DNA of 53,009 nucleotides from Eubacterium sp. (lineage in GTDB: Bacteria > Bacillota > Clostridia > Oscillospirales > Ruminococcaceae). The stretch spans positions 1-53,009 of the forward strand of contig JAISVH010000049.1 of assembly GCA_031271685.1 (NCBI GenBank), read 5' to 3'. Under the pieces are notes generated by a model. The model had not been told where the DNA came from. It did not search any database and saw only the letters and a program-made list of their open reading frames with translations. Positions 31,530 to 52,336 of the stretch are shown piece by piece. The translations under genes and the position numbers were made by a program. Each line of letters starts with the position of its first letter. Position 1 is the stretch's first letter.

Positions 31530-33653
31530 TCAAGCTTGAACAGAATTGCTATATTTTTTAGATTCCTCTTTTTCAATTTTAAACACTTTAAGCTTAGGAG
31601 TTGTTTTTATAGTATTATCTTTGTATTTTATTTTAAAACGTGTTGACAGAATTTTCCCGTTTTTTAATTCTATCCCTCTATTGTTGGTATACAGCGTATC
31701 TTTAACATAATATTTTTCTTTTTCTATCATGCTCCCAACACCGGAAATATAAACCTTTTCTTTGTCCTCGCTTTGTTCGTCTGTCGACAAATTTATGCAA
31801 GTATCAGAAAGCTCTATCATTTTATTTATCTCGGCTTCCGATTCTTTAACGTTTGAGCTTGAAGCGGAAACAATCAGGTTTATTCTAAATTTTCTTGATA
31901 TCTGTTCAAATGCCGAAAGAAACAGCTTTCCAGAAATTTCACTTTCACAAAGAAAAGGGTAGCTCACACCAATGACCTTTAAGCCAAGAAACGCAATATT
32001 TTTTATTCTGCGCAGCCTTATAAAATTATATAAAACGTCTAAAAACTCTTCGGGCATCAACGCGCCGCTTGTAAAAGTTAATTCTATAAGATCTTTTCCG
32101 TTTATATTCCAACATTTTGAAATGCACTTATACGATGAAATATTTATAAGGTTAGCTTCTTCTCCATTAACATCCCTTTCCTTAATAGGTATCTCAAACG
32201 TAATTTCTTTATTTTCCACTATTGACTTGCCACCGCGCATAATATCGCAAACCTCTTTGCAAAGCCTTACTCCATCAATATCAAAGGATTCTCTGTCGCT
32301 AAGCCGAATGATTAGCGCATTTTCCCCCTCCTCTTCGTTAACGCTGCCTTTAAACATGCGAAACAAAAGCGCATTAACCGCTAAATCTGATTTATAAAGT
32401 CCGGTTTTGCCCGTTATCGACAAAATTTGTGAGTGACTTTTGGGGAGTTCTCTAAAAAATTCAGGCAAAATCCTGTCAATAGCTTCTATGCCAAAAATAT
32501 TTCTCGGTCTATTTCTTTCTTCCTCGCTGTCCTGCAATTTTATTTCTTCAGTGCCACTCTTCAGCTCTTTTATAGCAGACATAAGATAGTGAACCGAAAG
32601 AAAAACCTCGATATATTTTTTTAAAAAGCTTTCTTCTTTCTTTGTGCTTCTTATTTTATACGGATGCCTTCCCGGAGTCTGAAGTACATGTCTTGATTTT
32701 TCAATTTCTATATATGTTTCATGATGGCTTCCGAAATGTGAGGTTGAAAGCGAAACAACAACATCGGCTCTAAATTTAACATTTTTTATGTAGTCAGTCC
32801 CCGTTTCATCTACCGCAGTGCAATCTTCAAGTGAAAAAACGCTTAAAAAATGATATCTTGAAAAAAGGTCGAATATGCGAAAAAGCTGTGTACGAGAAAG
32901 AGGTTTTTCATCGAACAGATTCAGCCCGTCAAAAGCAACAATCACAACCTTTGTGTCTTTTTTACCGCGCGTTTCATTATACTTGCTCGCCGCCATAAGC
33001 GCCATTTCAAGCTCTTTATATCTTATCTCAAATTGGCTTTTTTCATTTTCATCCGATTGAAAACCCAAAGGAGAAAGCAAGGGAAATACAATTTGAGGTA
33101 TTACTTTTCCGTTCTCCTTGTTCAGCATTTTTTCAAATTCTACGGCCGGATTTTTATTGCTATCCTGTTTCGGAAGATATCCTTTCATTCTGTTTATTCT
33201 CGGGTCATTTTCATCTTTAACAAAACTATTTATCGCCCTTTGGCGCGGCTGTTCAAGAGCGTAATACAGCGCTATCCCGCCATTAATTTGTTTGTGTCCG
33301 CTATAATTGATGCATTTTGCCGCAATTTGAAAAACCAAAGTTGACTTTCCGGTTCCGGGGGCGCCCGAAATAACAATATTCCCTGTCCCGTTTTCCTGCT
33401 CCGTAGGAATAATCAACCCTCCGGTGAATACTTTATTGATATCGTCACGGCTTTTTGAATTGGCAAATATGCATTCTCCCTGCTGCTCAAGCTTGCTTTT
33501 GCTTTTCCATTGGTCAAACAAGTAATTGTTATCTTTTTCGTCTTCTTTAGGAATAAACGACCTGTTAAATAAAATATCTAAATTATCCTCAAAAACAACG
33601 CTTCTTTTAGAATAACAAATCAAATTTTTTCTGTTATGCTTTAAATTACTCAT
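31530..33653 (-). CDS. KaiC-like two-domain RecA-fold ATPase
   Basis: Two tandem RecA/KaiC-type domains in 707 residues. Domain 1 is intact: Walker A GAPGTGKST (97-105), YYALEQPRQR in the place of the KaiC glutamates, Walker B VVIVAFD (Asp242) and the KaiC-like end ADVVVSL...YIEIEKSRHV...PGRHPYKI (about 296-334). Domain 2 is degenerate: its P-loop reads GKTGLYKS (415-422) with Tyr420 where Gly is expected, and the strand IKNIAFLGLKVI lacks the Walker B Asp. It lies 11 bp after the HD gene, whose TAG stop overlaps its AGGAG ribosome site, so the two are coupled. Function unknown; signalling, regulation or phage defence are all possible. It is AT-rich by eye. Confidence 0.75.
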   Translation of the reverse strand: MSNLKHNRKNLICYSKRSVVFEDNLDILFNRSFIPKEDEKDNNYLFDQWKSKSKLEQQGECIFANSKSRDDINKVFTGGLIIPTEQENGTGNIVISGAPGTGKSTLVFQIAAKCINYSGHKQINGGIALYYALEQPRQRAINSFVKDENDPRINRMKGYLPKQDSNKNPAVEFEKMLNKENGKVIPQIVFPLLSPLGFQSDENEKSQFEIRYKELEMALMAASKYNETRGKKDTKVVIVAFDGLNLFDEKPLSRTQLFRIFDLFSRYHFLSVFSLEDCTAVDETGTDYIKNVKFRADVVVSLSTSHFGSHHETYIEIEKSRHVLQTPGRHPYKIRSTKKEESFLKKYIEVFLSVHYLMSAIKELKSGTEEIKLQDSEEERNRPRNIFGIEAIDRILPEFFRELPKSHSQILSITGKTGLYKSDLAVNALLFRMFKGSVNEEEGENALIIRLSDRESFDIDGVRLCKEVCDIMRGGKSIVENKEITFEIPIKERDVNGEEANLINISSYKCISKCWNINGKDLIELTFTSGALMPEEFLDVLYNFIRLRRIKNIAFLGLKVIGVSYPFLCESEISGKLFLSAFEQISRKFRINLIVSASSSNVKESEAEINKMIELSDTCINLSTDEQSEDKEKVYISGVGSMIEKEKYYVKDTLYTNNRGIELKNGKILSTRFKIKYKDNTIKTTPKLKVFKIEKEESKKYSNSVQA

Positions 33654-33664
33654 ATGTAATTCTC

Positions 33665-34945
33665 CTAATCGTTAATGTCAGATATTGACCAAAATTTGTC
33701 GTCCCAATAAATTTCATAGCGCTTGATTATATTATCCCTATCCTTAACGTTACCTTTATTTAAAATAAGTTTAAAACGATTATAAACCCTGCTTGGCGTA
33801 TCTTCAAAAAGAATTTGAAGTCGCTTAACCGCTGTTTTGACCCGAGAAAGGTTTTCTCTTGGCTCTTTAAGCAAGTTCAGCAACTGCTCATAGCTGTGTT
33901 TTTCTTTCATTATTACAGCCTGCTGCAATTTAAGCATACTTTTTAAAACCTTATATAAAAAATCCGCGTCCAAGACGGGCTCAAAGTGTTCGCTAATCTG
34001 ATGCTTATTGTTTGCAAGTTCAACGCGATAAAGATGACCGTCACATTCAATAAGCCATTCTTTAATCGGTATGCCTGCCTGTATAAGTGAATTTCTTATT
34101 ACGCCCAAATCTTTGTTGTTTCTGCAAACGCCCTTAATGATTTTTAGATAATGTTCTTGATTATCAGGGTTATTTATATCAATTTTTACTGCGGCATTTT
34201 TTTTATTTTTATCAATTATATTGTCTATTGTTTTTTTAAAATCTTCTTTGTTGTCAGCGTCAATAGCTGAATAAATCATGTTTTTTTCAATATCAGTTAT
34301 ATGATCGCTTATTTTTATGCGAATATCTCTTTTTATTTTTGAGGGATCGGGCTTGGAAATATATTTAGGCTCGACCCTGTTTTTTGCCCCGTCGAGGTGA
34401 TCTCCAAGAAAGAGCAGAGACGCGAGCATCTTTACTCTTATGTTCCCATAATGCTCAATATAGTCCACGCTTCGAATGGATCTTCTCTCGTTATTTTCCG
34501 GGCAGCCCTCACATTCTTCTTTTGCGCATATGCCCCCGCTTTTGCAATCGTGATAAAAAGCCACAACGGCAATCATTCTAGCAAACGCTTCAGAAGCAAT
34601 CCTTATCTGAGCCCAACTTTCAAGTATCAGCTCCTTTGACTGTTTCGCGTGATCTTTGGTTTTGTCGTCTATCCTGCCGATATCATGCAGAAAAATCGCG
34701 CATAGAAGTATATATAGCTCCGCTGCGCTTAAATCAAGTTTATGATATGCAATGTTTTTCGGCTCAAAAAGAATATCTCCAACTTTTTTCTCAACATTAA
34801 GCACATGCGGCAACGAATTATAAGATCCTCCGCTTGGCGCTATTGCCGGCAGCCACTCAAGTTGAGCGATTTTTAAACTTTCCTCAAACTTGTTAAAAAG
34901 ATACCCATCGAGTTCACAAAGTCTTTCACGCATTAAATAATCCAT
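33665..34945 (-). CDS. HD-domain metal-dependent phosphohydrolase-like protein
   Basis: 426 residues. The HD superfamily pattern is visible: His47 in LPHVLNVEK, His87-Asp88 in FLHDIGR, His132-Asp133 in AFYHDCK and Asp182 in FLGDHLD. A cysteine cluster follows His132 (Cys134, 140, 145, 148), perhaps a zinc or cluster site. The remaining 230 residues are helical and highly charged, with no motif I can name. It resembles HD domains found in bacterial conflict-type proteins (HD-CE group), but I cannot confirm this by eye. First gene of a two-gene unit with the KaiC-like ATPase; nucleotide or cyclic nucleotide cleavage is a reasonable guess. Confidence 0.75.
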   Translation of the reverse strand: MDYLMRERLCELDGYLFNKFEESLKIAQLEWLPAIAPSGGSYNSLPHVLNVEKKVGDILFEPKNIAYHKLDLSAAELYILLCAIFLHDIGRIDDKTKDHAKQSKELILESWAQIRIASEAFARMIAVVAFYHDCKSGGICAKEECEGCPENNERRSIRSVDYIEHYGNIRVKMLASLLFLGDHLDGAKNRVEPKYISKPDPSKIKRDIRIKISDHITDIEKNMIYSAIDADNKEDFKKTIDNIIDKNKKNAAVKIDINNPDNQEHYLKIIKGVCRNNKDLGVIRNSLIQAGIPIKEWLIECDGHLYRVELANNKHQISEHFEPVLDADFLYKVLKSMLKLQQAVIMKEKHSYEQLLNLLKEPRENLSRVKTAVKRLQILFEDTPSRVYNRFKLILNKGNVKDRDNIIKRYEIYWDDKFWSISDIND

Positions 34946-43204: not shown

Positions 43205-44101
43205 TTAACTTACTTCGATTTTCCAACTCAACTCTTTTTCCCAACCTTCAGAAAAACCAAAATCCGACGGAGCTAAAACATCTGAATAATCAAAAAAATG
43301 TTTTTTTAATTTTTCAACAATAACGCCGTTCCAAACCGTGCGTCGCATGTGCAGCTGCTTCATAATAAAAACATAACTGAACAATGTGTTGTCAAACTCC
43401 ATTTCCGGCGTTGCCTTCGGTCGCAGCCAAAATCGGTTGTCATATAAGCGGTTATAATGGGCACAGTGGTTTCTAAGGTCTGAAAGACAATCCAACCACG
43501 AAATCAAATGTTTGGCGCTAATAGAAATATCAGAAAAGTTCTCTTCCACTATAGCCGCTTTGTCTTCAACTTTTAAGTCCCTAAAAAAATGAGTGAGCAT
43601 CCCAAAACTAAAAAGCTCAACAATCGCCCAAACGGGAAATTCCCCGCCGTATTTCCCTTTGTGATGCGCGACAATCCCGCTGTCGCCGTTAGACTCGACT
43701 ATCCGCTCAAGCTTAGAAATAAACTGCCGATGATTGTGTGTTCGGTCAAACGAATCTGGATTTTTATATCCCAACGCCCCATATTTCAGCGCGTGATAGT
43801 TTGAGCAAATTGCCCGGATAGTTATTTCAATCTCCTCTAACGCAACCAATAAAACATTTCTCAGTTCACGGTCAAAATCATATATCTTCAGGACCTTTTC
43901 AAAGCTTGTGCCTTTTTTATAATGTCCTTTTTCCACAAAAAAAGGAGCAAAATAATACGCCAACCTATAATAGTTTACAGCCCCCAAAACCTGTTTGGCA
44001 TGTTTTTCGTTTTCAATAACGCACCCGCGCTCACGTAGCTTTTTAATCTGATCATCAATAGTTGCCGGCTGTTTAACGTTTAATTTGTTATAATAGCTCA
44101 T
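43205..44101 (-). CDS. Abi_2/AbiF-type abortive infection protein (HEPN RNase)
   Basis: Matches the Abi_2 (AbiD/AbiF) family of phage abortive-infection proteins. Visible: KLRERGCVIENEKHAKQVLGAVNYYRLAYY near the N terminus, FEKVLKIYDFDRELRNVLLVALEEIEITIRA, and a HEPN catalytic RNHCAH (Arg210, His215) in LSDLRNHCAHYNRLY. 298 residues, full length. It presumably cleaves RNA on phage infection. Some AbiF relatives are held in check by an adjacent structured RNA; the hairpin-rich upstream gap could hold one, but this is not shown. It is not linked to obvious mobility genes. Confidence 0.88.
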   Translation of the reverse strand: MSYYNKLNVKQPATIDDQIKKLRERGCVIENEKHAKQVLGAVNYYRLAYYFAPFFVEKGHYKKGTSFEKVLKIYDFDRELRNVLLVALEEIEITIRAICSNYHALKYGALGYKNPDSFDRTHNHRQFISKLERIVESNGDSGIVAHHKGKYGGEFPVWAIVELFSFGMLTHFFRDLKVEDKAAIVEENFSDISISAKHLISWLDCLSDLRNHCAHYNRLYDNRFWLRPKATPEMEFDNTLFSYVFIMKQLHMRRTVWNGVIVEKLKKHFFDYSDVLAPSDFGFSEGWEKELSWKIEVS

Positions 44102-46618: not shown

Positions 46619-47815
46619 TTATTTTATAATTACACTTTGCCCCGGAAACGCCAAAGCGGCGGCATCTACCGCCAGAGCGGTTTCCGCGTCAGACAACCCC
46701 TCTTTGTCAATACAGGGGATCATTTCAAGTCCTCTAAGTTTTTTTTCGGCTAGCCCAAAAAGATAAACGACCTCTTCCTCCACATCTCCCGTTAAGCCCG
46801 CCCCCACCGTTTCCGCGAATTCCAGTTCGGCGCCAGCCTCCTGCTTTTTATAAACCGTAACTATTTTAACATTGCTAAGAGAGTCCCGTCCGCGAAGCAC
46901 TTCCGCCGTCCCTGCGAACTCGCCGTCATTCGACACGATATCCAACAACTGCATTTCAAGATATAACGGCTGTCCATCGGCGCAATCGTTCACCAGATCC
47001 ACCAACGCCGCATATCTGCCTCTCCCGGTTACCGAATCTGACAAAACTGACACATCATACGGTCTCATAACCGGAAAAGTGGTATTAGACAGTATAATCT
47101 CATCAAAGCCCGCCTCTCTTATCTCTTTTATTATCTCCGTTAAATACTCGGATGTCGCGGGTTTAGTTGGATCCGCCCACAATTTTCCCCCGTTTTCAAG
47201 GCGATCGTCCAGCCACTTAAAGCTTTTATCCGCAAACCAATAGCTCATATCATCAAAAAGTTTTGGCGCGCTTTTATCTGATAAAGTGCTTAGCCTCACT
47301 ATAGGTTGTATCTCATTTTCCATAAAAGTCAACATAATTTCCTGAAGGTCAAGATCGCCTTTAATCAGATCATTTTCTTCAAATCTGGGCGACTTGCTTT
47401 TATACCAAATATTCCCCACCGAATCTTTCAAATCTATAACCAACCGGGTATACCCCTCGGCCTTTGCGGAAATTAAATTTCCTGCCAACGCGGCCTTATT
47501 CTGAAGCGCCGAGGTCGGAGCATAAAAGGCCAGACCTTCTGTATCATAACCGGGTTCTTCCGGAACAGTCTCAATTGTCTCCGTGCTTTCTTCGGTCTGC
47601 TTATCCTGCTCCTCCGTCTCCCATATCACAGTGCCATCGTCTATCCGATCTAATGAAAAATAATCAAGTATAGGCTTTCCCGCCGCAAAGCCCAACATGC
47701 ATAGCCCTCCGGCAAGCACAATTACCCCCGCAATTTCAAGCGCTTTTCTTAAAATGCTTTTTTTCTTAAGATAAAGCGATTTTGACCGCTTTATTTTAAT
47801 CCCTTTTTTATTCAT
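46619..47815 (-). CDS. Membrane-anchored glycosidase-like (DUF4015-type) TIM-barrel protein
   Basis: One N-terminal membrane helix (about 28-48), an acidic linker rich in Glu and Thr (about 65-90), then a barrel-like domain: YTRLVIDLKDSVGNIWYKSKSP, IQPIVRLSTLSD and AGFDEIILSNTTFP. This pattern fits the putative glycoside hydrolase family DUF4015, though I am not certain. 398 residues, with the domain outside the cell. It lies 68 bp after the rnfA-like gene and may be co-transcribed with that trio. Confidence 0.6.
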   Translation of the reverse strand: MNKKGIKIKRSKSLYLKKKSILRKALEIAGVIVLAGGLCMLGFAAGKPILDYFSLDRIDDGTVIWETEEQDKQTEESTETIETVPEEPGYDTEGLAFYAPTSALQNKAALAGNLISAKAEGYTRLVIDLKDSVGNIWYKSKSPRFEENDLIKGDLDLQEIMLTFMENEIQPIVRLSTLSDKSAPKLFDDMSYWFADKSFKWLDDRLENGGKLWADPTKPATSEYLTEIIKEIREAGFDEIILSNTTFPVMRPYDVSVLSDSVTGRGRYAALVDLVNDCADGQPLYLEMQLLDIVSNDGEFAGTAEVLRGRDSLSNVKIVTVYKKQEAGAELEFAETVGAGLTGDVEEEVVYLFGLAEKKLRGLEMIPCIDKEGLSDAETALAVDAAALAFPGQSVIIK

Positions 47816-47883: not shown

Positions 47884-48480
47884 TTATAAAGTCGTTGAAT
47901 ATCCGATAAACGCGTAAAGCGACAGTGAAATTATTCCTATATAAACCAGCATTATTGGTATACCCCTAAATGCCTCCGGAACCAGCTCCGAATTTAGCCT
48001 GCCATGCGCTATATATAAAAGATAGCAAGCCAATAAAAAACCTATTCCCGTGCCCAAACCAAACCCTAAATAAGTCGTAAGGCTTGTCTCAAAATTGCTC
48101 TCAAGAAACAGCGCCCCAATAACTGACACATTGAAAACCGACAAATGCACATAGCCTTTGATTTTCTTAAAAAGCCTTGGCAAAACGGCCCAAATCAGTA
48201 TAAGGCTTATCACATATACAACGCTTATTATAAGTATATAAAAAAACGGCATTAGTATACGGTAATATTCAATATGTCCAAAATATTTATTAACAAAATA
48301 ATTTAGCGCAGATGAAACTGCCAAAACATAAGCGATAATAATCGAAAAACTTACAACGCTTTCTTTTTTTCGAGCCGCGTATAAAATTATATTCACGCCC
48401 AGCGCGCGCTCAAAAATCGAGTTTTGGAGAAATACCGCGATAAAAGACACTGCTAGCATCTCAGCAAAAACAGCAATCAT
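47884..48480 (-). CDS. RnfA-like membrane protein lacking the cluster cysteines
   Basis: Clear homologue of the RnfA/NqrE fold: 198 residues, six helices, and the family end RLNSELVPEAFRGIPIMLVYIGIISL. In true RnfA the two conserved segments read LGxCPFxGVSKK and TNCAVLG, whose cysteines bind the membrane iron-sulfur cluster. Here they read LGVNIILYAARKK (Asn30) and FNVSVIG (Val118), so both cysteines are gone. Redox function as in Rnf is therefore unlikely. It starts 1 bp after the rnfE-like stop. Confidence 0.82.
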   Translation of the reverse strand: MIAVFAEMLAVSFIAVFLQNSIFERALGVNIILYAARKKESVVSFSIIIAYVLAVSSALNYFVNKYFGHIEYYRILMPFFYILIISVVYVISLILIWAVLPRLFKKIKGYVHLSVFNVSVIGALFLESNFETSLTTYLGFGLGTGIGFLLACYLLYIAHGRLNSELVPEAFRGIPIMLVYIGIISLSLYAFIGYSTTL

Positions 48481-48481
48481 T

Positions 48482-49105
48482 TTATATTTTTCTCCTGTTC
48501 CTTATATTATTAAAAATGCACCGTGCCGCCGCCGCCAACACGCCAACCATAATAAGTCCGCCAAAAGTAGTTTCCAACGCCGGGACGCTAAACCCGGTGT
48601 TCAACCTAAGCCAACCTATCCGTCCGTTTACAATAATATCGCGAAAAGTGCCCACCCCCAAACAAACGATGTCAAACCCCAAAACATATCCGATAAGTTC
48701 GGGCATCATATCCTTAACCGGCATAAGATAAAACCTTGTTTCGCTCTTATTTAAAATAACCGGGTTAACCACCAGTATCGGAAGATAAATTCCTACGCTT
48801 GCGGCCATCGACGGCCCGGCAAGCTTGTCAATTGCCAATACCGCAGGAATATAAAACAATGCCGCTATTAAGGCATATAATATAATCCGTAGGGTATATA
48901 CTATTTTTCTCGAAATCAAACGGCAAACAAACACCGTAAAGAATGTAACGATAGAAAACACAAGCGTAATCGCCAACGCATTTTCAAAATTAACCGCACC
49001 GGCGGCCACCGGACTAATCAGCAATCCGCTCATTAAAACAACGTTTTGTCTCCACAAACCGTCTGATATCCGCCCCTTTAAAACTTGATTATTTATATCG
49101 GACAT
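48482..49105 (-). CDS. RnfE-like membrane protein lacking the cluster cysteines
   Basis: Homologue of RnfE/NqrD, 207 residues. The N terminus SDGLWRQNVVLMSGLLISPVAAG aligns with GLWxxNxxLVQxLGLCPxLAVT of RnfE, with Ser31 in place of Cys; later YLPILVVNPVILNKSE aligns with IPLIVTNCIVVGRAE, with Pro115 in place of Cys. Both cluster ligands are lost. The later FRDIIVNGRI matches the family. ATG 49105 was chosen because GGAGGG lies 4 bp upstream; a longer frame begins at 49162 without a good site. Confidence 0.82.
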   Translation of the reverse strand: MSDINNQVLKGRISDGLWRQNVVLMSGLLISPVAAGAVNFENALAITLVFSIVTFFTVFVCRLISRKIVYTLRIILYALIAALFYIPAVLAIDKLAGPSMAASVGIYLPILVVNPVILNKSETRFYLMPVKDMMPELIGYVLGFDIVCLGVGTFRDIIVNGRIGWLRLNTGFSVPALETTFGGLIMVGVLAAAARCIFNNIRNRRKI

Positions 49106-49176
49106 AAACCCTCCGTAAAACAATAGGCAACATATACTTGGCTGTTTGACAGTTGTCGGCAAAATACCATTTGCGC

Positions 49177-50679
49177 TTATAAGTTATCGTCATTTTCACC
49201 CGTAATTTCTGCGACCTCCTCAAAATCTACTACTTCCACCAATACCTGACTATGTGTGTCATGCAATTCCTTCTCCTGCGCCGTTCTTTCCGGCTTCACT
49301 TCCGTTTGCGTATCGCCAGCCGTTTCTTCAGCTTTAAAAGGTTCCGCAATTTTCCTTATTACCGAAATCACCGCCTCGACGATAAGCTTGGCCATCTTTT
49401 TAAACTCTAGCTTAAGCTCAATTTCACCTTCCGGCAAAGAAGCGCCGCCTAAAATTGAAATGTCTTCTGCTTTATTTGTCAAATCTCCGATTTTTTCCCT
49501 TGCTTTTTTCAAAAGATTTGGCTTTTTGCGATTTATTTTTGTTACCTTTCCGTCTATGGGCGGCATATCATAGTTTGTAGAAAGCACTTCAATCTCACGC
49601 GTATGCTCAAGCTCTTTTCCGTCTAAAGTTTTTGCCGTCTCACTAAAGTTCTCATAAGTGGAAATACTCCTTCTTAAAAAAGCAATTATCCTAAATACCA
49701 TCTCAATGCTTTTTTCGGCTACCGCATCAATTTTAAAAGATATGGCATTCGATGCAAGCAAAGCAAAAACAAAAGACCCTTCCACCTTTCCGTAACGGCG
49801 AAAAATAACAGTCATTATCCCTAATACCACCCCATAAAAAACTTTTCCCAACTGAGTTTTCGGAACAGTTTGAGGGTCGTTAGCAAGAAAAATCAATCCA
49901 AACAGCATATACCCACCAACAATTTCATATGCAAGAGTACTCCCGAAATTGTCATAAATCGGAAATATAGTGGCAATAATAAGAATTACAGCTAATCCTG
50001 TGGAAGTCATAATTGCTGAAATAGCGCGCCGCGCGGAAAGGCAAACTGCCGAAACGGCAATTACCGCAATATGAGTTGTTCCCATCGGCCCAGCAAAATT
50101 CCCTAGCATAATATCCGATAATGAAAGCTCCTGTACCCTTCCCAACTTTATTAAAATGCTTTCCAGTCCGGTGGTTAAAGGAACCGAAACCTCTCCAAAA
50201 GCTTGAAGCCACTCGCCCACCGCCGGATAATAAAGCATCTTTTCAGGGTAACAGATAATTAAAAAAGCTAGCGTTACCGCCGTCGGATTAAAAATGTAAT
50301 TGTCCTTTCCCCCAAAAATATGCTTTATCCCTATCGCCAGTCCCGCGCCCGCGGCAATCATGCCATAGGGTATATTGGCAGGCGTCATAAGCGCTATGCA
50401 CATTCCAGCCGCAATATTTGAAAAATCACGGAAAGTATATTCTTTTTTGCTCATCTTGCAGCATATAAAATCTACTAAAATACTGACAATAACAGACGTA
50501 AGCACTAAGTATAACGCCCTTGGCCCGTTGCGCCAAAAAGCCATACCCGTAAGTGCCGCGAAACACATTATCTGATCAGCGTAAATATGCCGCGCTTTAC
50601 GGGCGGAAATCAGCCCGGCCATCCCTTTAAGTTGTTGGTCGTCAAAACTATCGATTTTTTCTTCAAGTTGGCTGCTCAT
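49177..50679 (-). CDS. RnfD-like membrane protein with C-terminal extension
   Basis: Homologue of RnfD/NqrB. Residues 40-325 carry the helices and family motifs GGKDNYIFNPTAVTLAFL and FGLIFLANDPQT (usually LTDPVT), then GKVFYGVVLGIMTVIFRRYG. The flavin-bearing Thr normally sits in a D-x2-[ST]-x-A-T segment; here the region reads GEVSVPLTTGLES (163-175) and I see no such motif, although a Thr (169 or 170) may align. About 170 extra charged, probably cytoplasmic residues follow residue 330. 500 residues against about 320-350 for RnfD. First gene of the trio, and divergent from mecA with only 38 bp between start codons. Confidence 0.8.
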   Translation of the reverse strand: MSSQLEEKIDSFDDQQLKGMAGLISARKARHIYADQIMCFAALTGMAFWRNGPRALYLVLTSVIVSILVDFICCKMSKKEYTFRDFSNIAAGMCIALMTPANIPYGMIAAGAGLAIGIKHIFGGKDNYIFNPTAVTLAFLIICYPEKMLYYPAVGEWLQAFGEVSVPLTTGLESILIKLGRVQELSLSDIMLGNFAGPMGTTHIAVIAVSAVCLSARRAISAIMTSTGLAVILIIATIFPIYDNFGSTLAYEIVGGYMLFGLIFLANDPQTVPKTQLGKVFYGVVLGIMTVIFRRYGKVEGSFVFALLASNAISFKIDAVAEKSIEMVFRIIAFLRRSISTYENFSETAKTLDGKELEHTREIEVLSTNYDMPPIDGKVTKINRKKPNLLKKAREKIGDLTNKAEDISILGGASLPEGEIELKLEFKKMAKLIVEAVISVIRKIAEPFKAEETAGDTQTEVKPERTAQEKELHDTHSQVLVEVVDFEEVAEITGENDDNL

Positions 50680-50717: not shown

Positions 50718-51359
50718 ATGCAGATTGATATTCTCTCACAAAACACGTTAAAGCTCACTCTAACCAAACTGGATATGTTCGATTTAGACATAAAATATGA
50801 GAGTCTATCGGGAAAAAATCCCGAAACCAAGCGCCTGTTATCGCATGTGCTAAAAAGCATTCAATTTGATAAGCGCGTTGGATTTGATTTTTCCGGCGAA
50901 CGCCTTTTTGTCGAGGCTTTTCCCCGTCCCGACGGAGGCTGCATGCTTTACATTTCCAGTTTAGAAAACGAAAGCTTTGCCCGAAGACAAAAAAAATACA
51001 ACACAGAAAGAGATTTAAAAAATGGTCAGAATATTAGTCGGTTAAGTTCTCACGAAAAAGAAAAAGATCCGTCTCATTTTCAAATCTGCGAAATAAATGA
51101 TATCAATAACTTAGGGCTAGTCTCAAAAAAACTGTGTTGGTTCAAAAAGAACAAAGGACTGAATTTTAAATCCGTACTGTATAATCGCAAGGAAATATAC
51201 CGCTTGACAATAAGCTGCGAAAACCCAAAGCTTGCCGCATTGATTCTCCGAGAATACGGCGAAATAATTTCAGGAGAGTATGAGCTAATGAACACCGCAG
51301 AACAGTTCATCATGGTCATCTCAGAGCAGGCGGCGGAAATACTTGCCGAATGCCTATAA
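50718..51359 (+). CDS. mecA: MecA-like adaptor protein
   Basis: Adaptor that delivers proteins to ClpC for degradation. The N-terminal domain MQIDILSQNTLKLTLTKLDM...DIKYESLSG and VGFDFSGERLFVEAFPRPDGGCMLYI matches MecA; a variable charged linker (about 90-125) and a C-terminal ClpC-binding-like alpha/beta domain (about 130-213) follow. 213 residues, usual length. GAGGTG precedes the ATG. The TAA stop (51357-51359) lies in the TATAAC end of an inverted family A tail. Confidence 0.78.
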   Translation: MQIDILSQNTLKLTLTKLDMFDLDIKYESLSGKNPETKRLLSHVLKSIQFDKRVGFDFSGERLFVEAFPRPDGGCMLYISSLENESFARRQKKYNTERDLKNGQNISRLSSHEKEKDPSHFQICEINDINNLGLVSKKLCWFKKNKGLNFKSVLYNRKEIYRLTISCENPKLAALILREYGEIISGEYELMNTAEQFIMVISEQAAEILAECL

Positions 51360-51682: not shown

Positions 51683-52336
51683 CTATTTCTGCGGCAACAG
51701 CGAACTTACAGCGCTTTTCATATTCTCGTTTTTAAAAAGGTAGCTTCCGGCAACCAAAACATTTGCGCCGGCATCGCGAGAAATTTTTGCCGTATGCCCG
51801 TTTATTCCCCCATCGACTTCAATGTCAATATCGACTCCGAGACGGTTTGCTTCAGCGCGTATCGTTCTCACTTTTTCCAGCATTTCCAGCATAAAGCCCT
51901 GCCCTCCATACCCCGGCTCAACCGTCATAACAAGTATCATGTCCGCTTCTTTAAGATAAGGAAAAACACTTTCGGCTGAAGTGCCGGGCTTTATACTCAA
52001 ACCGGACTTTACGCCAAATTCTCTTATCAGCCGCAGAGTCTTAAAAGTGTCACAGTTACTTTCCTTGTGTATTGTTATGATATCTGAGCCGCCCTCTACA
52101 AAAAGAGGGATAAGTCCGGTCGGATCATATACCATAAGGTGCGTGTCAAAAACCAAATTTGTATGCTTACGCAGCGAATTCTGCATATAATCTCCGAAAG
52201 TAATGCTGCGAACAAAAACGCCGTCCATAACGTCCAGATGCAGCATATGCGCCCCCGCCTGCTCAACGCGGCGCACTTCTTTTCCAAGTTCAGACATGTC
52301 CGAATTCAGAACAGAAGCCGATATTTTATATTTCAT
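51683..52336 (-). CDS. rpe: Ribulose-phosphate 3-epimerase
   Basis: Interconverts ribulose-5-phosphate and xylulose-5-phosphate in the pentose phosphate pathway. TIM-barrel motifs: ISASVLNSD (usually PSILxAD), MLHLDVMDGVFV with His33, Asp35 and Asp38, DTHLMV with metal-binding His, MTVEPGYGGQGF and the second catalytic Asp in EVDGGI. 217 residues, full length. FVRSITFG replaces the common FVPNITFG, a mild divergence; relatives such as allulose epimerases remain possible. Confidence 0.92.
   Translation of the reverse strand: MKYKISASVLNSDMSELGKEVRRVEQAGAHMLHLDVMDGVFVRSITFGDYMQNSLRKHTNLVFDTHLMVYDPTGLIPLFVEGGSDIITIHKESNCDTFKTLRLIREFGVKSGLSIKPGTSAESVFPYLKEADMILVMTVEPGYGGQGFMLEMLEKVRTIRAEANRLGVDIDIEVDGGINGHTAKISRDAGANVLVAGSYLFKNENMKSAVSSLLPQK

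Follow-up and report, generated by a model that had tools for sequence, protein, structure and literature searches.

The 53,009-nucleotide contig JAISVH010000049.1 of a Eubacterium sp. genome (assembly GCA_031271685.1, family Ruminococcaceae), called the window here, carries three adjacent genes for homologues of the Rnf membrane subunits RnfD, RnfE and RnfA. To judge from their sequences, the three proteins do not form an Rnf-type transmembrane electron pump and are conserved for another function, a reading to which we give a probability of roughly 0.9. The best explanation is that the membrane part of an Rnf operon inherited from an ancestor was retained for another job after transmembrane electron transfer had gone. 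Put plainly, the stripped complex is a descendant of Rnf, yet its defining cofactors show that it cannot be an Rnf itself. By the aligned residues and the gene content, the four-cysteine site is destroyed, the covalent flavin mononucleotide (FMN) motif of D is gone, RnfB and RnfG are absent from the locus, and the lineage of the window has also lost RnfC. An envelope link through a neighbouring gene of the family DUF4015 appears to be the best functional lead, and a redox sensor and a transporter its strongest rivals.

All three genes lie on the minus strand. The D-like gene (RnfD/NqrB family, 49177-50679) encodes 500 amino acids (aa), in which PF03116 (E 2e-52) was the sole domain detected in a Pfam scan. 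The E-like gene (RnfE/NqrD family, 48482-49108) encodes 208 aa from its ATG, with a TTG at 49162 as possible alternative start, and matched PF02508 at E 3.4e-19. The A-like gene (RnfA/NqrE family, 47884-48480, 198 aa) matched the same domain at E 4.5e-19. The NCBIfam subfamily models scored these proteins far under their cut-offs (71 versus 229 bits for rnfA, 46 versus 213 for rnfE and 116 versus 207 for rnfD), the Rnf models higher than the Nqr models. Profiles of D, E and A matched the chains A, D and E of the structures 9eri and 7zc6 at E 1e-38 to 1e-66, with one canonical row of the source genome included in the A profile, two in the E profile and none in the D profile. A structure model of the A-like protein (predicted local distance difference test, pLDDT, 75.8) fitted RnfA/NqrE chains at template modelling (TM) scores of 0.65-0.77. 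Beyond D318, the D-like protein ends in a charged tail of 182 aa (49177-49725); this C-terminal tail measures 336 aa at locus L084 and 146 aa at locus L085, and its median in canonical RnfD is 15.

The residues were numbered according to A. woodii Rnf as given in passages of PMC11889175, and the RnfD mapping was checked by profile alignment. The same passages name RnfA C25 and C113 and RnfE C25 and C108 as ligands of the [2Fe-2S] cluster in the membrane, and report that removing the AE1 cysteines or RnfD N123/D249 abolished growth and activity of A. woodii (PMC11889175). The canonical rnf operon of the source genome served as internal control. Aligned to its RnfA and RnfE, the A-like protein of the window has Asn30 and Val118 and the E-like protein Ser31 and Pro115 at the places of the cluster cysteines, exactly the residues named in the initial annotation, a first reading of the letters alone. 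Its other descriptive statements were confirmed as well. The Pfam and profile matches identify the adjacent genes as homologues of rnfD, rnfE and rnfA, and the neighbours are a MecA-like gene (PF05389) and the glycosidase-like DUF4015 gene (PF13200). The D-like protein has VSVPL at the aligned place of the SGAT-type flavinylation motif. Inspection of the neighbourhood and the alignments found no rnfB, rnfC or rnfG at the window locus, nor was there an RnfG/NqrC-type match. Two predicted riboflavin ligands, N131 and D268 (N123 and D249 in A. woodii RnfD), are kept in D, and the E-like protein retains the equivalents of RnfE R67 and E115. A regular-expression (regex) search detected no PHIR-like N-terminal motif in the D-like protein of the window.

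These positions were compared between 59 stripped loci, 57 of them with A, and 91 canonical loci, both groups being defined partly by the cysteine columns. Two loci, L086 (equal to L038) and L089 (equal to L046), were removed beforehand, and L104, L109, L126, L136, L143, L180, L181 and L191 were assigned to neither group. A set of 80 loci from the family was picked as best D-like matches with no use of the cysteines; its rows were added to a fixed alignment, which is coarser than the first. Cysteine was found at RnfA C25 in 0/57 stripped versus 91/91 canonical loci (0/78 in the family set), at RnfE C25 in 0/59 versus 91/91 (0/80) and at RnfE C108 in 0/59 versus 91/91 (0/80). RnfA C113 was still cysteine in 34/57 stripped versus 91/91 canonical loci and in 46/78 of the family set. 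This fourth cysteine cannot hold a cluster alone, and three ligands are thus lost throughout. The cysteine loss expected among relatives therefore extends to three of the four positions, and Val118 of the window does not stand for a general rule. Threonine at RnfD T156, the site of covalent FMN, occurred in 8/59 stripped versus 87/91 canonical loci (14/80 in the family set). Asparagine was present at RnfD N123 in 55/59 versus 91/91 loci; the family set had 61/80, with histidine in 12. At RnfD D249, 47 of the 59 stripped loci had aspartate and 10 glutamate, versus aspartate in 90/91 canonical loci, and the position was acidic in 73/80 of the family set. In RnfE, R67 was retained in 46/59 stripped versus 86/91 canonical loci (63/80 in the family set), L103 in 46/59 versus 91/91, N107 in 42/59 versus 91/91 and E115 in 31/59 versus 90/91 (48/80). 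By these counts, the membrane electron route is cut, the ligands of non-covalent riboflavin are mostly kept, and the cation path is half kept.

A D-like protein was matched in 113/119 genomes of the same family, mostly with two matches per genome. The best D-like loci of 79 family genomes were fetched and joined by the window and the second match of G014 (genomes are numbered with G, loci with L, contigs with C, families with f). Of these 81 loci, 80, each from a different genome, were stripped; the remaining one, L249, is a C-D-G fragment of canonical type from G014, a genome that also has a stripped locus. The 80 do not include seven more family genomes, whose D-like matches reach E 2.7e-31 or better. 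RnfB was found in 0/81 loci and RnfG in 1/81, namely L249. Two loci were without A: L043, which ends at a contig end, and L068, with no A in the fetched stretch. Among the loci fetched, stripped C-D-E-A loci also occurred in five more families of the order, f5 (L169), f7 (L164, L208-L210), f9 (L170), f15 (L173) and f24 (L168, L212-L215). Named isolates with a stripped locus include Anaerotruncus colihominis (L091), Negativibacillus massiliensis (L096) and Bittarella massiliensis (L097). The D-profile score alone was dropped as marker of the stripped type, as four canonical operons of f7 (L211, L220-L222) scored equal to or above the stripped L173.

The view was limited to the three genes of the window until a cluster of neighbouring proteins proved to be RnfC-like, and was then widened to C-D-E-A. 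An RnfC-like gene lies directly upstream of D in 36/80 family loci and is absent at D in 44/80, the window included. Clusters lacking B and G are thus the rule among the fetched family loci, and those lacking C as well make up a part of them. The count of 36 excludes the canonical L249 and also L230, where a frame of 1148 aa lies about 6.6 kb from D and is no adjacent RnfC; four of the 36 frames overlap D by 142-163 bases, owing to the longest-start rule. Eight RnfC-like examples had 4Fe-4S matches and an SLBB or related match, and seven of them a weak Nuo51 match. All eight Fe-S cysteines were present in 36/36 RnfC-like proteins, the GxGG of the FMN motif in 0/36. When an RnfC-like relative was used as query in the source genome, the sole long match was the canonical RnfC on contig C16; five further Fe-S matches were weak or short. 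The PHIR-like motif of D was found in 33/43 stripped loci with C versus 0/27 without C, by a regex that catches only 54/91 canonical RnfD; this is a correlation across related loci and no count of independent events. Some RnfC-like frames have long low-complexity or coiled-looking tails (L060, 786 aa; L061, 644 aa; L091, 1015 aa).

The initial annotation had regarded the redox cofactor sites and electron transfer as lost. That view holds for the cluster, for covalent FMN and for the transmembrane route of Rnf, with cluster ligands, FMN motif of D, B and G all gone; it does not extend to the riboflavin ligands or to the eight cysteines of the RnfC-like proteins, which leave room for cytoplasmic redox chemistry or sensing. 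One rival explanation, to which we give a low probability, builds on these sites. Riboflavin in D and two [4Fe-4S] clusters of the RnfC-like protein would form a short electron relay that reports the redox state and reshapes D-E-A as a cytoplasmic redox sensor, with no electrons crossing the membrane. The invariant Fe-S cysteines beside a missing GxGG, together with the conservation of N123 and of an acidic residue at D249 (57/59) in the stripped loci, are what such a sensor would display. However, more than half of the family loci lack C at D, the riboflavin positions are less uniform in the wider set, the residues at these positions may be structural, and neither FMN in C nor RnfB, the known electron donor and acceptor sites in Rnf, is left.

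The DUF4015 gene (46619-47815, minus strand, 398 aa, PF13200) follows A in the window, where the order on the minus strand is D-like, E-like, A-like, DUF4015. One base separates the E-like and A-like genes and the two other gaps in this run are 68 bases each, a layout that looks like an operon. DUF4015 was located downstream of A in 66/80 family loci. The model of the DUF4015 protein (pLDDT 74.9) has a basic N-terminus, one long helix (21-55) and then a glycosidase-like alpha/beta (TIM) barrel, and as modelled the protein is probably membrane-anchored with its domain facing outward. D180 and D203 of the protein are invariant. Its top match in the PDB was Cwp19 (E 5.3e-10, TMq 0.51), next came Cthe_0052 and PgaB, and amylases, GH20 hexosaminidases and others were further fold matches among the 640 at E 0.001 or better. 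A sequence search of the PDB gave one clear match, 4s1a (E 1.6e-8). Cwp19 (GHL10 domain; 5OQ2) degrades peptidoglycan according to passages of PMC6016235. It differs from the DUF4015 protein in sequence, with 13% identity, and in Pfam family. A report on DUF4015 activity was not found in the open-licence PMC papers searched. The gene also follows complete canonical rnf operons, e.g. at L165, L172, L175, L177, L182, L187-L189, L202, L220-L224 and L227-L229, and its association with rnf is therefore probably older than the stripping.

The gene order [C]-D-E-A-DUF4015 argues for a partnership, and the partly kept RnfE residues R67, L103 and E115 indicate that part of the gating apparatus survives. 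It is possible, at somewhat less than even odds, that a stripped Rnf core has been kept to assist an envelope enzyme as its partner, by conformational change or by a link to ions; D-E-A as the functional partner of DUF4015 in the envelope has about the same standing. A movement of D-E-A linked to an ion gradient is more doubtful. If the three subunits keep the assembly that they have in Rnf, the A/E dimer would still be able to switch between inward-facing and outward-facing states. With no electron-driven step, an ion gradient could drive this movement, or A/E could act as a gated passage or a scaffold. The outer face, on which RnfG docks in Rnf, would now serve the membrane-anchored, outward-facing DUF4015 protein, and D-E-A would place or control a hydrolase of the envelope. 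FtsEX with its hydrolases offers a general analogy for this kind of control. A bolder proposal, which we consider unlikely, is that these complexes form a class of membrane machines of their own. A redox pump would have lost its transmembrane electron step more than once in anaerobic Firmicutes, and its alternating-access A/E core would couple the ion gradient or a cytoplasmic redox signal (Fe-S clusters of RnfC, riboflavin) to the control of DUF4015 as an outward-facing, membrane-anchored hydrolase of peptidoglycan type, an Rnf-derived counterpart of FtsEX.

Several observations weigh against such a role. DUF4015 is not obligatory, since it was found neither in 14/80 family loci, some of which are truncated at contig ends, nor in the five loci fetched from f24. 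As TIM barrels commonly match each other, a substrate cannot be read from the match to Cwp19. The Na+ path has lost some of its residues: RnfA E88 is glutamate in 2/57 stripped versus 90/91 canonical loci, T110 is threonine in 10/57 versus 90/91, and T111 is replaced by phenylalanine in 41/57 stripped loci, which renders retained Na+ transport doubtful. In some lineages, a redox role of some kind is indicated by the Fe-S cysteines that RnfC retains and by the riboflavin ligands. The ion- or envelope-related function proposed in the initial annotation has thus gained a lead in DUF4015 and falls short of demonstration.

The same evidence can be read in favour of a secondary transporter or flippase, in which A/E would move an envelope building block or another solute by alternating access and DUF4015 would act on the exported glycan. 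The partly kept gate residues, the kept fold of A and a glycosidase-like neighbour with a probably outward-facing domain would suit it. However, the fold matches of the A-like protein that ranked after the Rnf/Nqr chains, MATE transporters among them, had E >1; we judge this rival to be improbable, at the same level as the redox sensor.

A separate complete rnf operon was found in the source genome. The canonical rnfCDGEAB is present as C-D-G-E(5') at the end of contig C16 and as E(3')-A-B at the end of C115, apparently one operon split within rnfE by the contig ends. In this operon all four cysteines of the cluster are present, the FMN motif of C is intact and D has TGATP; its presence may be the reason why the stripped copy could be released. 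It also raises the possibility, a slim one in our view, that the stripped proteins are auxiliary or regulatory partners of canonical Rnf in the same cell, through mixed complexes, assembly or inhibition. In line with this, an RnfG match at E 0.001 or better was obtained in 74/80 family genomes with a fetched stripped locus, where weak matches may be other FMN-binding proteins, since the cut-off of the RnfG model was passed by only 11/119 genomes. The six genomes without such a match were G001, G022, G037, G043, G076 and G102, and only G102 is >90% complete. G102 (94% complete) has one D match, no RnfG match and no RnfB match over the cut-off, yet C, D and E were found at its locus L068 and no A. 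In genus g124, the genomes G124, G148, G166 and G209 have a single D match each, which is of the stripped type. The stripped operon thus need not serve canonical Rnf, in these genomes at least. For INDEPENDENCE from canonical Rnf, G102 and the four genomes of genus g124 are the relevant cases. Strain BL-6, for which passages of PMC7764203 list only four Rnf genes, also speaks against an auxiliary partner; the number four would fit C-D-E-A.

D, E and A are under purifying selection. In unsaturated pairs, the ratio of non-synonymous to synonymous substitution rates (dN/dS) was 0.06-0.16 for D, 0.04-0.17 for E and 0.04-0.13 for A, and 0.03-0.16 for the neighbouring rpe-like gene. The exception was genus g124 (L164, L208-L210), in which the E-like frame reaches about 500 aa through a long extension that evolves fast, with a whole-frame dN/dS of 0.32-0.44. 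A decaying remnant of a duplicated rnf operon, which the losses of B, G and then C plus the motifs might resemble, is very improbable and was rejected on the ratios of 0.04-0.17 outside genus g124, the open frames and the conserved position in the fetched family genomes. With the E-like gene of genus g124 excepted, these ratios agree with the initial proposal of selection for another function instead of decay.

Trees were calculated from concatenated D, E and A with the cysteine columns removed. The stripped loci of the family clustered together, and the window fell into a group with D-E-A only (support 100/99 in the first tree, 100/100 in the second). Another D-E-A locus, L098, stood outside this group in the first tree, and C may thus have been lost more than once. 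A single origin of all losses of the cluster site was rejected by the approximately unbiased (AU) test (p 3.4e-54; 20 rows versus 26). The site was broken at least three times, the minimum required by the starred branches; on the best tree, four changes are counted. One case is L181, a complete CDGEAB operon with two of the four cysteines replaced, nested among CC/CC relatives at 100/100. Its genome, G136, holds two complete rnf operons, L181 and L225, one of them with two of the four cluster cysteines changed to glycine. L191 (G432), from a different part of the class, has the order C-D-G-E-A with no B found; most of its cluster cysteines are lost (SC in A, AG in E), and the FMN motifs of C and D are kept. 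L226 (G221) has C-D-E-A-B followed by DUF4015 with no G found, PS in A, AG in E and a damaged FMN motif in C; by its gene content and residues it appears to be an intermediate between canonical and stripped operons.

The g124 lineage and L226 may represent further independent losses. Two trees placed the g124 lineage with the main clade of stripped loci (100/98 and 97/100), as did a smaller tree at 94/79, in which holding it with its own canonical family members gave a tree 4.57 log units better (p-AU 0.60). In a tree of D only, L164 of this genus stood among canonical sequences (83). Both stripped (L164, L208-L210) and canonical (L223) operons occur in genus g124, and the stripped rows form long branches in the trees. 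L226 was placed outside the main stripped clade in the second tree and joined it at 100/99 in the smaller one.

The Rnf complexes of A. woodii (9ERI) and C. tetanomorphum (7ZC6) share with the stripped complex homologous D, E and A and the gene order C-D-E-A. They differ in possessing B, G, the ligand set of the membrane [2Fe-2S] cluster, the covalent-FMN motif in D and the FMN motif in C, and from the window also in C itself. Na+-NQR is a parallel case: in passages of PMC4014512 and PMC12174285, Nqr is derived from a duplicated rnf that lost rnfB, and NqrA, the counterpart of RnfC, is described as having lost its cofactors (PMC4014512, PMC11889175, PMC12174285). Unlike the stripped complex, Nqr still has covalent FMN and the [2Fe-2S] cluster in the membrane, and it acquired NqrF. 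Nothing of this kind was found at the window locus, and no NqrF-type domain was detected in the seven neighbouring proteins of the window that were scanned. A two-subunit flavinylation complex resembling Nqr/Rnf, as described in passages of PMC11334425, likewise has a membrane NqrB/RnfD relative without the flavinylation threonine; it differs in its flavinylated RnfG/NqrC-like subunit and NAD-binding domain, neither of which is present in the stripped complex, which has A and E.

The closest counterpart in gene content is rnfDEA of Faecalibacterium duncaniae A2-165 (CG447_09840-830), which equals the window. A figure legend in PMC10781979 presents it together with rnfCDGEAB as two putative rnf operons for an energy-conserving NADH:ferredoxin oxidoreductase. 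Related genera suggest that the cysteines are probably lost in F. duncaniae as well, and the related sequences argue against the energy-conserving label for rnfDEA. A description of the stripped complex was not found in the open-licence PMC papers searched.

Several further genes of the window were noted beside the complex. The MecA-like gene (50718-51359, plus strand, PF05389) is divergent from the D-like gene and neighbours the locus in 43/80 family loci. It is probably no component of the complex and was rejected as a partner, since it lies on the opposite strand and is present at these loci only, which gives no reason for inclusion. The gene at 51683-52336 (minus strand), which from its sequence we take to be rpe (ribulose-phosphate 3-epimerase), is the upstream landmark in 78/80 family loci and does not belong to the complex. 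More distant are a gene of the Abi_2 family (43205-44101; PF07751, E 1.2e-46), possibly a phage-defence gene, and a large protein (31530-34945) with two apparent ATP-binding motifs, KaiC-like by eye, whose neighbour has an HD-type motif by eye.

For gut bacteria that live by fermentation, energy conservation is assigned with the help of their Rnf genes. To judge by its sequence, a widespread operon that carries Rnf names cannot work as Rnf. With at least three breaks of the cluster site and with intermediates at hand, these bacteria offer a natural experiment on what the A/E/D core does without electrons. Rnf, in its canonical as well as its stripped form, is also linked to DUF4015, a gene resembling envelope hydrolases.

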